Shown here in pieces: positions 25,209-27,725 of a DNA stretch of 29,813 nucleotides. The notes below the pieces were generated by a model that had not been told where the DNA came from, ran no database searches, and was given only the letters and a program-made list of their open reading frames with translations. The position numbers and the translations under genes are program-made. Positions within the stretch are counted from its first letter, which is position 1, and each line of letters starts with the position of its first letter. The stretch spans positions 1-29,813 of IMG/VR virus record IMGVR_UViG_3300031952_000101. One strand, written 5' to 3'. Origin of the DNA: a virus.

Positions 25209-25496
25209 CTACCCCTCTTTCTTGTATAAAAATCTAATAAGCCTAATGCCTGTAAGTGGCAGCCTTGCGTAAACATGCTGCCTGTCGGTGGCGTCAACAA
25301 CTGCTGCCTCAAAGTAAGGCATACCTTCAAGCAGGTAGGTATCGTAAGTTACCTCAACGTGCCCGTCAATTACTAAAGTGTTACTTGTTTTGTTAGTGTC
25401 CCTGTATAAAATCTCCACACCAATGTTAGGTGTGATGGTAGCGGCAGCCCTAACTTTTGTTAGGGTTGTGATGTTCTCCTTATTTGTTCCTGTCAT
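25209..25496 (-). CDS. Hypothetical beta-rich protein between exonuclease and MazG
   Basis: A 95-residue protein with GAGGG seven bases before ATG 25496, overlapping the exonuclease stop by 4 nt and ending two bases before MazG. The N-terminus MTGTNKENITTLTKVRAAATITPNIGVEI is followed by alternating strands: NTLVIDGHVEVTYDTYLL, YFEAAVVDATD, HVYARLPLTGIRLIRF and a basic KKEG end. It lacks Cys, and no catalytic or binding motif is evident. A small beta-sandwich or OB-like protein is conceivable. The function is unknown. Confidence 0.65.
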   Translation of the reverse strand: MTGTNKENITTLTKVRAAATITPNIGVEILYRDTNKTSNTLVIDGHVEVTYDTYLLEGMPYFEAAVVDATDRQHVYARLPLTGIRLIRFLYKKEG

Positions 25497-26233
25497 AATT
25501 GTACCCTCGTGTGTCTGCTTTGATTTAAACGCTCTGATTGTCTATGTCTAAACCAAGTGTAGCACTTGTTACAGTTATACAAGGTGTATTTACGTGATTC
25601 TGTGTAATAAAACCCCTTCTCTTTGTAATTTTGTGTACCACAGGTTGGGCAGCACATTGAATTACTTAGTGTTGACAGGTTTACACCATGCAACCAAGGC
25701 AGTAACTTATTGTATACCTGCTCAAGTAGTTGTGTGTCCTGCTTGTTATATCGCTGCATCATACGCCATGCAGCTTTATCACCTGCCATGCAACGCACCC
25801 ACAAATCATGGCCTGTATGCTTGACTTTACCCTTCAAGCCTAGCATGCGTGCTACGTACTCAAGCTTGTTACTGGGTAGCCTGAAATTACGCTTCACTAC
25901 CTGGTACAAATCTATCTGTTTGAATGGCTTTGCTGGCGGGAGGCCTAGCTGTAAGAATGCGCTGTTAAGCACAGGAATATCAAATCTCTTCCCATTGTAA
26001 TGCAACACTGCGTCAGCTTCTGATAGTAGTGTGTGTATACGCCTTATCATAAGCGAGTGCTTATTGCTGTTACAGTCCATGTACTCAGTCTGCTTACTGC
26101 CAAGCCATTTAGCTGACCAGCACAATATGTAGCTGCTGCTAATAAGCTGTGCCAGACTGACGTTCTGCCCCCACAGTGACCATACATGCGCCGTATTAGG
26201 TGCTGTTTCCACATCTAAAAGTAGGATTTTCAT
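25493..26233 (-). CDS. DnaQ/RNase H-like 3'-5' exonuclease with zinc ribbon
   Basis: A 246-residue protein. The exonuclease domain has motif I D7-x-E9 (LLLDVETAPNT), motif II around LHYNGKRFDIPVLNSA, and motif III YNKQDTQLLEQVY (Tyr-x3-Asp). That makes it a DEDDy-type exonuclease as in many phage replication modules. Residues ~200-230 add a zinc ribbon with CCPTCG and CNKC, likely for nucleic acid binding. ATG 26233 is chosen: it overlaps the HNH stop (ATGA) and restores the normal MKILLLDVE start. An in-frame ATG at 26245 lies inside the HNH gene. No DNA polymerase is in the window, so a separate proofreading role is inference. Its start appears rebuilt after HNH insertion. Confidence 0.85.
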   Translation of the reverse strand: MKILLLDVETAPNTAHVWSLWGQNVSLAQLISSSYILCWSAKWLGSKQTEYMDCNSNKHSLMIRRIHTLLSEADAVLHYNGKRFDIPVLNSAFLQLGLPPAKPFKQIDLYQVVKRNFRLPSNKLEYVARMLGLKGKVKHTGHDLWVRCMAGDKAAWRMMQRYNKQDTQLLEQVYNKLLPWLHGVNLSTLSNSMCCPTCGTQNYKEKGFYYTESRKYTLYNCNKCYTWFRHRQSERLNQSRHTRVQL

Positions 26234-26661
26234 ACGTACCCCCATGCCCTGCTTAGGTAATTCCCGCCTGTGTTTATTGCCCGTTTTATATTTCCTTGTT
26301 TACCTCCTAAAACCTTTGCCGCCTCTGCTTGGGACTCAAAAACTTCACCTTTACAAGTTTTAACAGGAGTCATCCCCCAAGCGGTCAACCCACTCCGCGC
26401 AGCGTGCAGTAAATTATCTCTTCTAGAACACCACTCAAGATTGTCTAGGTTGTTATTGAGTTTATTACCATCTTTATGGTTGACAGTCTCTAAATTACCA
26501 GGGTTTGGTATATACTTGACTGCTAAAAGTCTATGGACTGTTGCCCAGCCAGATTTTAATCTTACTTTTAAATAGCCATTATGTAGTGTGTGCTTTAGAA
26601 GCGCCCCTCTGCTGCCGTAAATGTCCCCGTTTCTTTCGATATCTACTAACAATATTTTCAT
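26230..26661 (-). CDS. HNH homing endonuclease using the exonuclease's start
   Basis: A 143-residue protein of the free-standing phage HNH_3 type. VHRLLAVKYIPNPGNLETVNHKDGNKLNNNL is followed by LEWCSRRDNLLHA. The HKDGN and N-LEW elements are the metal-binding His-Asn-His core. The C-terminal half (KGEVFESQAEAAKVLGGKQGNIKRAI, ending in WGYV) resembles the NUMOD-type DNA-binding helix-turn-helix of homing enzymes. The first nine residues, MKILLVDIE, equal the exonuclease start MKILLLDVE with two conservative changes, before the usual HNH lead NGDIYGSRG. The upstream SD-like sequence (GAGTAGG) is probably the original exonuclease site. The whole insert is coding, so a group I intron is excluded. 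Confidence 0.85.
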   Translation of the reverse strand: MKILLVDIERNGDIYGSRGALLKHTLHNGYLKVRLKSGWATVHRLLAVKYIPNPGNLETVNHKDGNKLNNNLDNLEWCSRRDNLLHAARSGLTAWGMTPVKTCKGEVFESQAEAAKVLGGKQGNIKRAINTGGNYLSRAWGYV

Positions 26662-26664
26662 AAC

Positions 26665-26901
26665 CTACTCTTCACTGATGTTTTTAGACAAATACCCTAT
26701 AAGCTCGACTAAGTCGCAGTAACCGACACGCCCTTTCTTCACGTCCTGCACAAACTGCGCAGCACCGGTGATATCAAAAAGCCCATATTTTTCCTTCCCT
26801 TTCACCAAGATGCAGCCATTTTCAAACTGTCCATCATAAAGTATGGCCAGATTACTCAATGCTCCAGCAGTCAACATATCCAATGCTCCAGAAGTCAACA
26901 T
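26665..26901 (-). CDS. Hypothetical small protein with duplicated start
   Basis: A 78-residue protein with AGGGGG four bases before ATG 26901. The N-terminus is duplicated: MLTSGALD is followed directly by MLTAGALS. If translation began at the second ATG (26877), the remaining 70-residue protein would keep all other features, but it has no binding site of its own except the same upstream one. The body NLAILYDGQFENGCILVKGKEKYGLFDI looks like a small beta domain, followed by TGAAQFVQDVKKGRVGYCDLVELIGYLS with a helix. It has no known motif. It sits between the SSB-like gene's hairpin and the HNH gene, three bases before the latter. Confidence 0.65.
   Translation of the reverse strand: MLTSGALDMLTAGALSNLAILYDGQFENGCILVKGKEKYGLFDITGAAQFVQDVKKGRVGYCDLVELIGYLSKNISEE
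26854..26901 (-). repeat. 24-bp tandem duplication at a start codon
   Basis: On the - strand two consecutive 24-base units (26901-26878 and 26877-26854) both begin ATGTTGACT and share GGAGCATTG near their ends. They differ at only a few positions. The duplication doubles the first eight codons, giving two in-frame ATGs. Confidence 0.9.
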
Positions 26902-26924
26902 AATACCCCCTAATTAAAATGGTA

Positions 26925-26949
26925 GGCAGTGCCTGTGTGCAGCACTGCC
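26925..26949 (-). terminator. Possible intra-operon terminator or processing stem
   Basis: GGCAGTGC (26925-26932) and GCACTGCC (26942-26949) are perfect complements around a 9-base loop. On the - strand the stem follows the SSB-like stop at 26960-26962 and precedes TACCATTTTAATT and the next gene's AGGGGG site. The U-run begins five bases after the stem, so termination may be partial. Confidence 0.55.
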
Positions 26950-26959
26950 ATTACTACTA

Positions 26960-27559
26960 CTACTGCTCAAATGGTAGGTCATCAGCCTCAAAGCTAGGCT
27001 GCTGAAATGCACTGTACTTAGCAGCTGGGGCAGGCTTAGGCTTTACTACGGCCTGCTGTACTGCTGCTTGCTGTACTGGTACAGTTGCAGGTATAAAGCC
27101 GTCTTTAATTACGTCATACAACTGCCCTGCTACTGATATCATACTGTCAACGCTACCCCCTTTATCAAAGGCTACAGCTAGTGTTAGGGCATTGTATCTA
27201 AGCTTCTGCTCTGCCGTCGTGTCATGATCACCGCGCCCACTGTTATAGCTATTAGGCTTGTAAGCAGGTGCAGGCGGTGCGGCAGGTGTTGGAGGTGTTG
27301 CAGGTGCAGCATAAGCCTGCTGTTGTACTACTGGTGCATGCGCTTGCTGTATTGGTTGCTGTGCTGGCTGTGCATAACCAACTGCGTGCAGGCCAGTAAC
27401 TTCGTACCGGGGTGCCCCGTTCTTGGCAATACCTTGTGTAATTTGCCCTTCAACTGTTGAGCCTTTAGGTGGTATAAAGGTTCCCCTTGGTACGTTATAC
27501 CAAACGCCGCCTGCCTTAAAACCTAACCCATTACTTGCCAACGCTTCTATAACCAACAT
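26960..27559 (-). CDS. SSB-like single-stranded DNA-binding protein
   Basis: A 199-residue protein. ATG 27559 is preferred over 27598 because AGGAG lies eight bases upstream and the longer frame runs into a small membrane gene. Residues 1-60 (MLVIEALASNGLGFKAGG, then VWYNVPRG, STVEGQITQGIA, RYEVTG) could be a short OB-like beta domain. Residues ~70-120 form a Gln/Ala/Pro linker. Residues ~122-165 form a helical block (AEQKLRYNALTLAVAF; SMISVAGQLYDVIKDG). A second Ala/Val/Pro linker leads to the acidic end FEADDLPFEQ, reminiscent of the DDDIPF tip by which bacterial SSB recruits partners. Its place beside replication genes agrees. The unusual layout (short fold, middle helices) makes it a divergent or analogous SSB. 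Confidence 0.6.
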   Translation of the reverse strand: MLVIEALASNGLGFKAGGVWYNVPRGTFIPPKGSTVEGQITQGIAKNGAPRYEVTGLHAVGYAQPAQQPIQQAHAPVVQQQAYAAPATPPTPAAPPAPAYKPNSYNSGRGDHDTTAEQKLRYNALTLAVAFDKGGSVDSMISVAGQLYDVIKDGFIPATVPVQQAAVQQAVVKPKPAPAAKYSAFQQPSFEADDLPFEQ

Positions 27560-27560
27560 A

Positions 27561-27725
27561 CTACAATCTCCTAATAAAATTAAACCAAAATACAGCAATT
27601 AAACTATAGCTGACAAAAGTTATTAATAAAAAGAACTCTTCGCCTAGCTCGAACTTTAACGCCACAATAAAAACCAACCACAAACACAACAACACCACTC
27701 CACAACACATTCCAAAGTTGTACAT
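27561..27725 (-). CDS. Two-helix membrane peptide between ThyA and SSB-like gene
   Basis: A 54-residue protein starting ATG TAC AAC TTT at 27725. The site TAAGGTGG overlaps the thyA stop, and the gene is eight bases after it. It ends TAG at 27563-27561, one base before the SSB-like ATG, and its last codons carry that gene's AGGAG. Residues 5-22 (GMCCGVVLLCLWLVFIVA) form one hydrophobic helix. A short charged turn (LKFELGEE) follows, then residues 31-49 (FFLLITFVSYSLIAVFWFN) form a second helix and RRL ends it on the basic side. This looks like a hairpin with both ends on one side. Tight coupling on both sides shows that it is a real gene. A holin or antiholin is possible; a superinfection-exclusion or membrane-tether role cannot be excluded. 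Confidence 0.75.
   Translation of the reverse strand: MYNFGMCCGVVLLCLWLVFIVALKFELGEEFFLLITFVSYSLIAVFWFNFIRRL

Follow-up and report, generated by a model that had tools for sequence, protein, structure and literature searches.

Homing endonuclease genes that travel outside introns and inteins are generally expected to occupy mostly intergenic sites, since an insertion into an essential gene would be lethal to the host. The phage locus analysed here raises the question of how an HNH endonuclease gene and the exonuclease gene that follows it come to open with such similar codons, and to which of the two genes this start originally belonged. The window, i.e. the whole stretch of viral DNA that was analysed, spans positions 1-29,813 (29.8 kb) of IMG/VR record IMGVR_UViG_3300031952_000101. 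The relevant features are listed below, with L001 to L004 designating relatives that are introduced further on.

26665..26901, minus strand: ORF of 78 aa directly upstream of the HNH gene, with no Pfam or PHROG match.
26661..26230, minus strand: HNH_3 endonuclease ORF (143 aa; translation MKILLVDIERNGDIYGSRG...WGYV*).
26635..26661, minus strand: putative captured start, the nine first codons of the resident exonuclease (MKILLVDIE), now opening the HNH gene; 9/9 residues and 23-25/27 bases shared with L001, L003 and L004, the highest mean identity among the starts tested.
26230..26634, minus strand: remaining part (body) of the HNH_3 endonuclease; a NUMOD-like match at its C-terminus is weak and falls below the cut-off.
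26207..26233, minus strand: putative restored start, MKILLLDVE, a divergent version of the nine codons with which the exonuclease now begins; 19/27 bases identical to the HNH-side copy, ATGA overlap with the HNH stop.
25496..26233, minus strand: 3'-5' exonuclease (DNA polymerase exonuclease subunit); phrog_403 at 2.5e-84, RNase_H_2 at 2.8e-16, D-x-E at residues 7-9.
25901..26233, minus strand: predicted foreign 5' tract of the exonuclease gene; mismatches to L001 are dense as far as 25958, a last one lies at 25901, and the following ca. 3.8 kb are free of them.

The sharing of a start by the HNH gene and the exonuclease gene is real in the window. The HNH protein begins with MKILLVDIE and runs directly into RNGDIYG and the HNH_3 domain. 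The exonuclease reads MKILLLDVETAPNTAHVWSL... from the ATG at 26233 (minus strand), with the N-terminal sequence MKILLLDVETAP; an alternative start of this ORF occurs four codons earlier, at 26245. Its D-x-E is presumably catalytic motif I of the phrog_403 exonucleases. Between the two nine-codon copies, four codons are identical, three synonymous and two non-synonymous, and at the junction, GT-ATGA, the exonuclease ATG is overlapped by the TGA stop of the HNH gene. These observations confirmed the original prediction as to both starts, their 19/27 identical bases and the ATGA overlap. The prediction had also assigned the upstream SD-like sequence to the HNH copy, which stands for that copy but not exclusively: an SD-like run, CATGGGGGTACGT, also precedes the ATG of the exonuclease copy, so that a ribosome site is not a property of the HNH copy alone.

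Neither an intron nor an intein accounts for this arrangement, as had been proposed. A group I intron carrying an HNH ORF was rejected, with no Rfam match at E<=1 in 25300-27700 (an absence that is weak evidence against unusual introns) and an exonuclease that is complete without splicing. An intein was also rejected, since the HNH frame stops at the TGA overlapping the exonuclease ATG and there is no in-frame continuity on both sides; the insert is coding and has its own stop. The encoded protein has the nuclease domain of a free-standing HNH homing endonuclease, and its gene lies inside neither an intron nor an intein. The Pfam match to HNH_3 reaches 9.8e-9, and 1u3e, an HNH homing endonuclease that we take to be I-HmuI, matches at 2.9e-7 from residue 8 and over the VNHKDGN motif; no other solved structure was found at E<=0.1. 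Matches to phrog_59 (3.5e-33) and phrog_959 start at residues 10 and 8, and homology to the HNH family thus begins at residues 8-10, where the captured part ends.

Database searches in IMG/VR revealed four closely related loci (L001, L002, L003 and L004) in which the exonuclease start is covered and this HNH gene is absent; two truncated loci (L005 and L009) and three distant ones (L006-L008) were set aside. All four exonucleases encode MKILLVDIETAPN and start with MKILLVDIE-TAP, the start of L002 being the same as that of L001. The HNH-side copy shares 24, 23 and 25 of 27 bases with L001, L003 and L004, with 9/9 residues and no non-synonymous difference, and the exonuclease-side copy only 20, 19 and 20. 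In the relatives, the start codons are directly followed by ACC/ACA GCA CC, and in the HNH-side copy of the window by the HNH body. An uninterrupted allele in which the HNH-side codons join ACA GCA CCT had been foreseen and was borne out in this form; the converse, HNH-less relatives matching the downstream copy, did not occur among these four. When 133 other exonuclease starts were compared (L001-L004 and their duplicates excluded), none reached the mean identity of the HNH-side copy to L001, L003 and L004 (24.0 bases), and 82 were at least as close to them as the exonuclease-side copy (19.7). By best single match, two of these starts, L121 and L133, do as well as the HNH-side copy (25/27). 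The peptide MKILLVDIE by itself is not diagnostic, as it also occurs in three of the 133, the more distant exonuclease loci L119, L167 and L173. Judged by these comparisons, the HNH-side copy is the resident exonuclease start, since the HNH-less relatives match all its residues and most of its bases. A caveat is that the captured stretch would measure only 27 bases. BLAST found no alignment to L001-L004 between 26663 and 26910, and this stretch without counterpart in the relatives is filled by the 78-aa ORF and the HNH gene.

The downstream copy belongs to a longer divergent tract, of ca. 275-330 bp, at the 5' end of the exonuclease gene. Downstream of 25901, the window and L001 are identical for ca. 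3.8 kb; within the exonuclease gene they differ by 69 mismatches, one at 25901, and BLAST against L001 gave no alignment from the exonuclease start up to 26911. Identity between the window and L001-L004 is 73-83% in three 100-bp blocks of this 5' end, as against 90-94% between L002 and L004; L003 is also more divergent, with 81-85% identity to L001 in the tract. In 30-base bins compared with L001, the first has 22/30 identical bases and the next eight have 20-27/30, except one at 19. The proposal that the target had been recoded to avoid self-cutting found no support in this comparison: the divergence of the start copy does not exceed that of the remaining tract, nor is the first bin more different than those after it, so that the copy is not specially recoded. 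The downstream start thus looks imported rather than rewritten. The foreign tract fits co-conversion during homing, and immunity to self-cutting may follow from the imported start. A donor phage carrying this foreign exonuclease 5' end was not found.

The same tract bears on two other accounts of the locus. A gene flanked by two copies of one short coding stretch is what an insertion with target-site duplication would leave, the copies then diverging in place. Such an event predicts a resident-like downstream copy, but it is the upstream copy that is resident-like, the downstream one being divergent together with the next ca. 250 bp, which makes a target-site duplication very improbable. The second account concerns the edge of the tract. 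L001, the closest relative, is identical (100%) to L002 throughout its own nuclease tract and to the window (100%) downstream of it. Either natural recombination or contig chimerism has thus occurred at this edge, and L001 or the window is possibly an assembly chimera. That the shared start itself results from an assembly artefact joining two phage alleles is scarcely credible: alleles do coexist at the site, with L001 changing from identity with the window to identity with L002 across it, but both reading frames are intact, the ATGA overlap is exact, and the same layout recurs in three loci from separate records (L010, L054 and L384, see below).

Other nuclease genes also occur beside exonuclease starts. 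In L001 and L002, a recombination endonuclease VII gene lies directly upstream of the exonuclease gene, with an ATGA overlap too (L001:1936-2343; Pfam 1.6e-23 in L001), and an annotated endonuclease overlaps the exonuclease start in L095. Among the exonuclease matches listed, 16 of 40 have an "endonuclease VII" annotated under the match, irrespective of side (13 Pseudomonas and 3 Pseudoalteromonas phage records). Because endonuclease VII and annotated endonuclease genes adjoin exonuclease starts, a donor in which the nuclease gene abuts the exonuclease gene is plausible.

We consider it likely, on the sequence comparisons above, that a free-standing HNH homing gene entered the conserved 5' end of the exonuclease gene, appropriated the start found there and rebuilt the exonuclease gene by means of a foreign start. 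The donor phage would have carried the HNH gene directly upstream of an exonuclease gene, as do other nuclease genes at these loci. The HNH enzyme would cut the start of an uninterrupted exonuclease gene, and repair would copy the HNH gene together with the 5' end of the donor's exonuclease. On the right side, joining would be homologous, within the exonuclease gene; on the left side, it would be illegitimate, of a microhomology type, immediately after the E codon of D-x-E and inside the N-terminal codons of the nuclease. The left joining would remove the start of the HNH gene, which would gain the resident start, in frame, and its expression. The target would survive because the donor's start came along: behind the HNH stop, the exonuclease is whole, with a divergent start and ca. 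300 bp of divergent 5' coding sequence. Differences between the two starts might block both self-cutting and loss by direct-repeat recombination.

A survey of HNH genes indicated that the window is not the only case. Among 197 unique HNH ORFs, the window included, 174 could be compared with a downstream start, and four of these have a start in common with the next gene (prefix score of at least 32): the window (37), L010 (32), L054 (33) and L384 (48); the other 170 score at most 27. In a control of 28,730 mismatched pairs of HNH and downstream regions among these 170, the four candidates being excluded, 9 reached 32, 2 reached 37 and none reached 48.

In L010, the HNH protein, 46% identical to that of the window, starts with MKILLLD-YSVTEDG and the exonuclease after it with MKILLLDIES; the shared start covers 7/7 residues and 18/21 bases, again with an ATGA overlap. 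In L054, an HNH gene with a GTG start (MRVLDLF-KGYRIREDG) precedes a C5-methyltransferase gene starting with MRVLSLFAGIGG. In L384, the HNH start is MKLEKQVVSLELARRLKEPL and that of the next gene, of unknown function, is MKLEDQVVSLELAKKLKALN; across the 20 shared codons, 2 are identical, 12 synonymous and 6 non-synonymous, 14/20 residues are identical, and an ATGA overlap is also present. In the window, L010, L054 and L384, homology to phrog_59 sets in at residues 10, 7, 7 and 25, and homology to phrog_959 at residues 8, 7, 5 and 24; for phrog_99, the onset in L010 is residue 5. The first 12-19 positions of phrog_959 are absent in the window, L010 and L054, and only the first 5 in L384. Since HNH homology begins near its end, the shared start appears to lie mostly outside the HNH family, with an overlap of 1-5 residues, which amounts to 1-2 for the window and L010 and to as many as 5 for L054. 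The join falls at the exonuclease D-x-E in both the window and L010, and the MRVL-LF-G of the L054 target is presumably motif I of C5-methyltransferases.

A coincidental likeness, in which the HNH family natively opens with an MK-hydrophobic-D strand that happens to resemble the exonuclease start, is improbable for the window. Starts of this kind do exist, as in L419 (VKIAIID) and in L425 (MKFVFID, beside ribonucleotide reductase genes), but coincidence would have to account for 9/9 residues and up to 25/27 bases shared with the exonuclease start of relatives. In addition, the HNH start of the window scores 37 with its own downstream gene, versus at most 29 with 170 other downstream regions, and L384 shares 20 residues (14 identical) of quite different sequence. 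For individual loci the picture is more nuanced. The L010 and L054 cases rest on 7-9 residues, and the L010 case is weakened because some HNH genes natively open with MK-hydrophobic-D-like stretches (L016 and L425). Comparison of L010 with L109 and L183-L186 gave no evident co-conversion or foreign exonuclease tract, and neither of its start copies is clearly resident, the HNH-side copy being nearest to L186 (20/21 bases) and only 15/21 to the closest relative, L183. For the L384 target, no uninterrupted relative was matched in INPHARED, and among 98 genomes related to the L384 record only the record itself was found.

Starts might also be shared through ordinary mosaic recombination of phage genomes at conserved gene starts, with the nuclease playing no part in its own spread. 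Non-nuclease neighbours do share starts: the adjoining EaF- and EaD-like genes of Salmonella phage epsilon34 both open with MSNIDK (score 30; L424:3146-3560, EU570103.1), which suggests that starts may be exchanged between non-nuclease genes too. The gene after the HNH gene in L384 (L384:1914-2276) likewise matches phrog_31971 only over residues 1-30, a start resembling a shared module. On the other side, among 1742 pairs of neighbouring ORFs (mechanical ORFs on both strands, from a set of loci that is HNH-rich by design), six score at least 30, and all four scoring at least 32 are the HNH genes of the window, L010, L054 and L384; the edge of the foreign tract is also close to the nuclease, as co-conversion predicts. 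We therefore regard mosaic recombination as unlikely, though deserving of attention, and retain homing with start capture as the preferred explanation of the window.

Whether the four loci represent a recurrent class is a more tentative matter, to which we would give slightly less than an even chance. Members of this putative class of phage HNH "home-and-rescue" elements would invade the first codons of conserved genes and there acquire both the start and the expression of the resident gene. The divergent 5' end that they bring along would restore this gene, and would also shield the element from its own enzyme and from loss by direct-repeat recombination. In three of these four loci, the invaded codons presumably lie at or close to motif I of the encoded enzyme. 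Deletion of the nuclease would leave a scar such as may be present in L106. At L106:1948-2027, a second start is found 53 bases upstream of the exonuclease start, with the same seven residues and 14/21 bases; 26 bases follow it, and then the same ATGA overlap. This locus may be the scar of a lost start-capturing nuclease; among the loci compared it has no uninterrupted close relative, the best being 64% identical. It emerged from a survey of 170 exonuclease loci, reduced to 136 unique ones and 2 truncated ones after 32 duplicates were dropped, 134 of the 136 having a comparable upstream start. An upstream copy of the exonuclease start with 7/7 residues was found in two of the 134 (L114, which is L010, and L106), the other 132 having at most 5/7. 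When IMG/VR was scanned for an HNH motif flanked, at set distances, by two exonuclease-type starts, only the L010 contig was returned, in a scan that may omit the record of the window itself. A second scan, in which no HNH motif was required, returned only L257, a plain tandem duplication with no HNH gene, which was discarded.

The original prediction knew of no described mechanism with this exact arrangement. Searches of open-licence PMC papers, as far as the accessible text goes, turned up no description of start capture with start restoration (PMC10448857, PMC2248197 and PMC5626475 included), but the mirror image is documented at 3' ends. Fungal mitochondrial mobile ORFs (mORFs), presented in the accessible text of PMC3630166 for atp6, atp9, cox2 and nad3 of Glomus sp. 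and for atp6 of Allomyces, are endonuclease ORFs that sit in a conserved gene and carry a divergent foreign copy of the displaced piece, by which a hybrid gene is rebuilt; between the two atp6 copies, identity is 63.5% at the DNA level and 91% at the protein level. The element of the window similarly brings a divergent copy of a displaced coding end and the gene is rebuilt. In mORFs, as that text has it (PMC3630166), the 3' end and C-terminus are replaced by LAGLIDADG or GIY-YIG elements and the native end is left behind (unexpressed in atp6 and cox2), whereas in the phage window an HNH element replaces the 5' end and N-terminus, and the native start that it displaces serves as the start of the nuclease gene. 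Since the rebuilt end is the N-terminus and not the C-terminus, the element resembles an mORF in its working but is not one as described, and the best reading of the outcome, by analogy, is a 5' mirror of these fungal elements.

Other known systems share parts of the arrangement. The HNH and GIY-YIG genes of the mob and seg families in T-even phages are stand-alone nuclease genes beside conserved phage genes, with co-conversion tracts and translational overlaps, and one-sided illegitimate repair with microhomology, by homing endonucleases, is documented for T4; they are intergenic, however, and none of those described in the accessible part of this source starts on the target gene's own start (PMC2988022). 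The ShiLan domain, an HNH domain inside a phage methylase gene, also lies within a coding sequence with no intron or intein, but it is out of frame in an uninterrupted host ORF, and the accessible text reports no restored start copy (PMC11855218). A hidden insertion of the ShiLan type was rejected for the window, where the HNH gene opens with the resident start and is closed by its own stop codon, and the exonuclease restarts. Synthetic home-and-rescue gene drives likewise combine homing into an essential gene with the rescue of its function; as described in the available text, they are engineered Cas9 systems in flies, working by design, and the analogy is only functional (PMC7968924). Phage epsilon34 gp31, annotated as "EaE-like protein inframe fusion with HNH endonuclease" (EU570103.1), is similar in that an HNH domain continues the reading frame opened by the start of a different phage gene, but the next two annotated genes carry no copy of the EaE start. 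This in-frame fusion (L424:2345-3037) raises the question of a start capture without rescue.

If the proposed explanation of the window is true, stand-alone nucleases can colonise coding sequence directly and be expressed from the target gene. They would then correspond, at 5' ends, to what the fungal elements are at 3' ends, and home-and-rescue drives would have a parallel in nature as well as in the laboratory. Such elements could be searched for by a simple signature, namely a nuclease gene that opens with codons similar to those at the start of the gene behind it.

Several further loci were considered. In a member of the Zobellviridae (L419:2001-3249, PQ867851.1), an HNH gene overlaps the start of an exonuclease subunit gene; its start resembles that of the exonuclease but has the look of one native to the HNH family, as it probably is, and the locus was dropped as a capture for this reason. 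L420 was rejected, its next gene being on the other strand. Among HNH genes matched from near query residue 1, those of L423, L425, L426, L431 and L432 share no start with the next gene. In L431 (845-2363, PQ867849.1), the endonuclease gene lies between pieces annotated as DNA primase/helicase, which points to a split gene or an unannotated intron.
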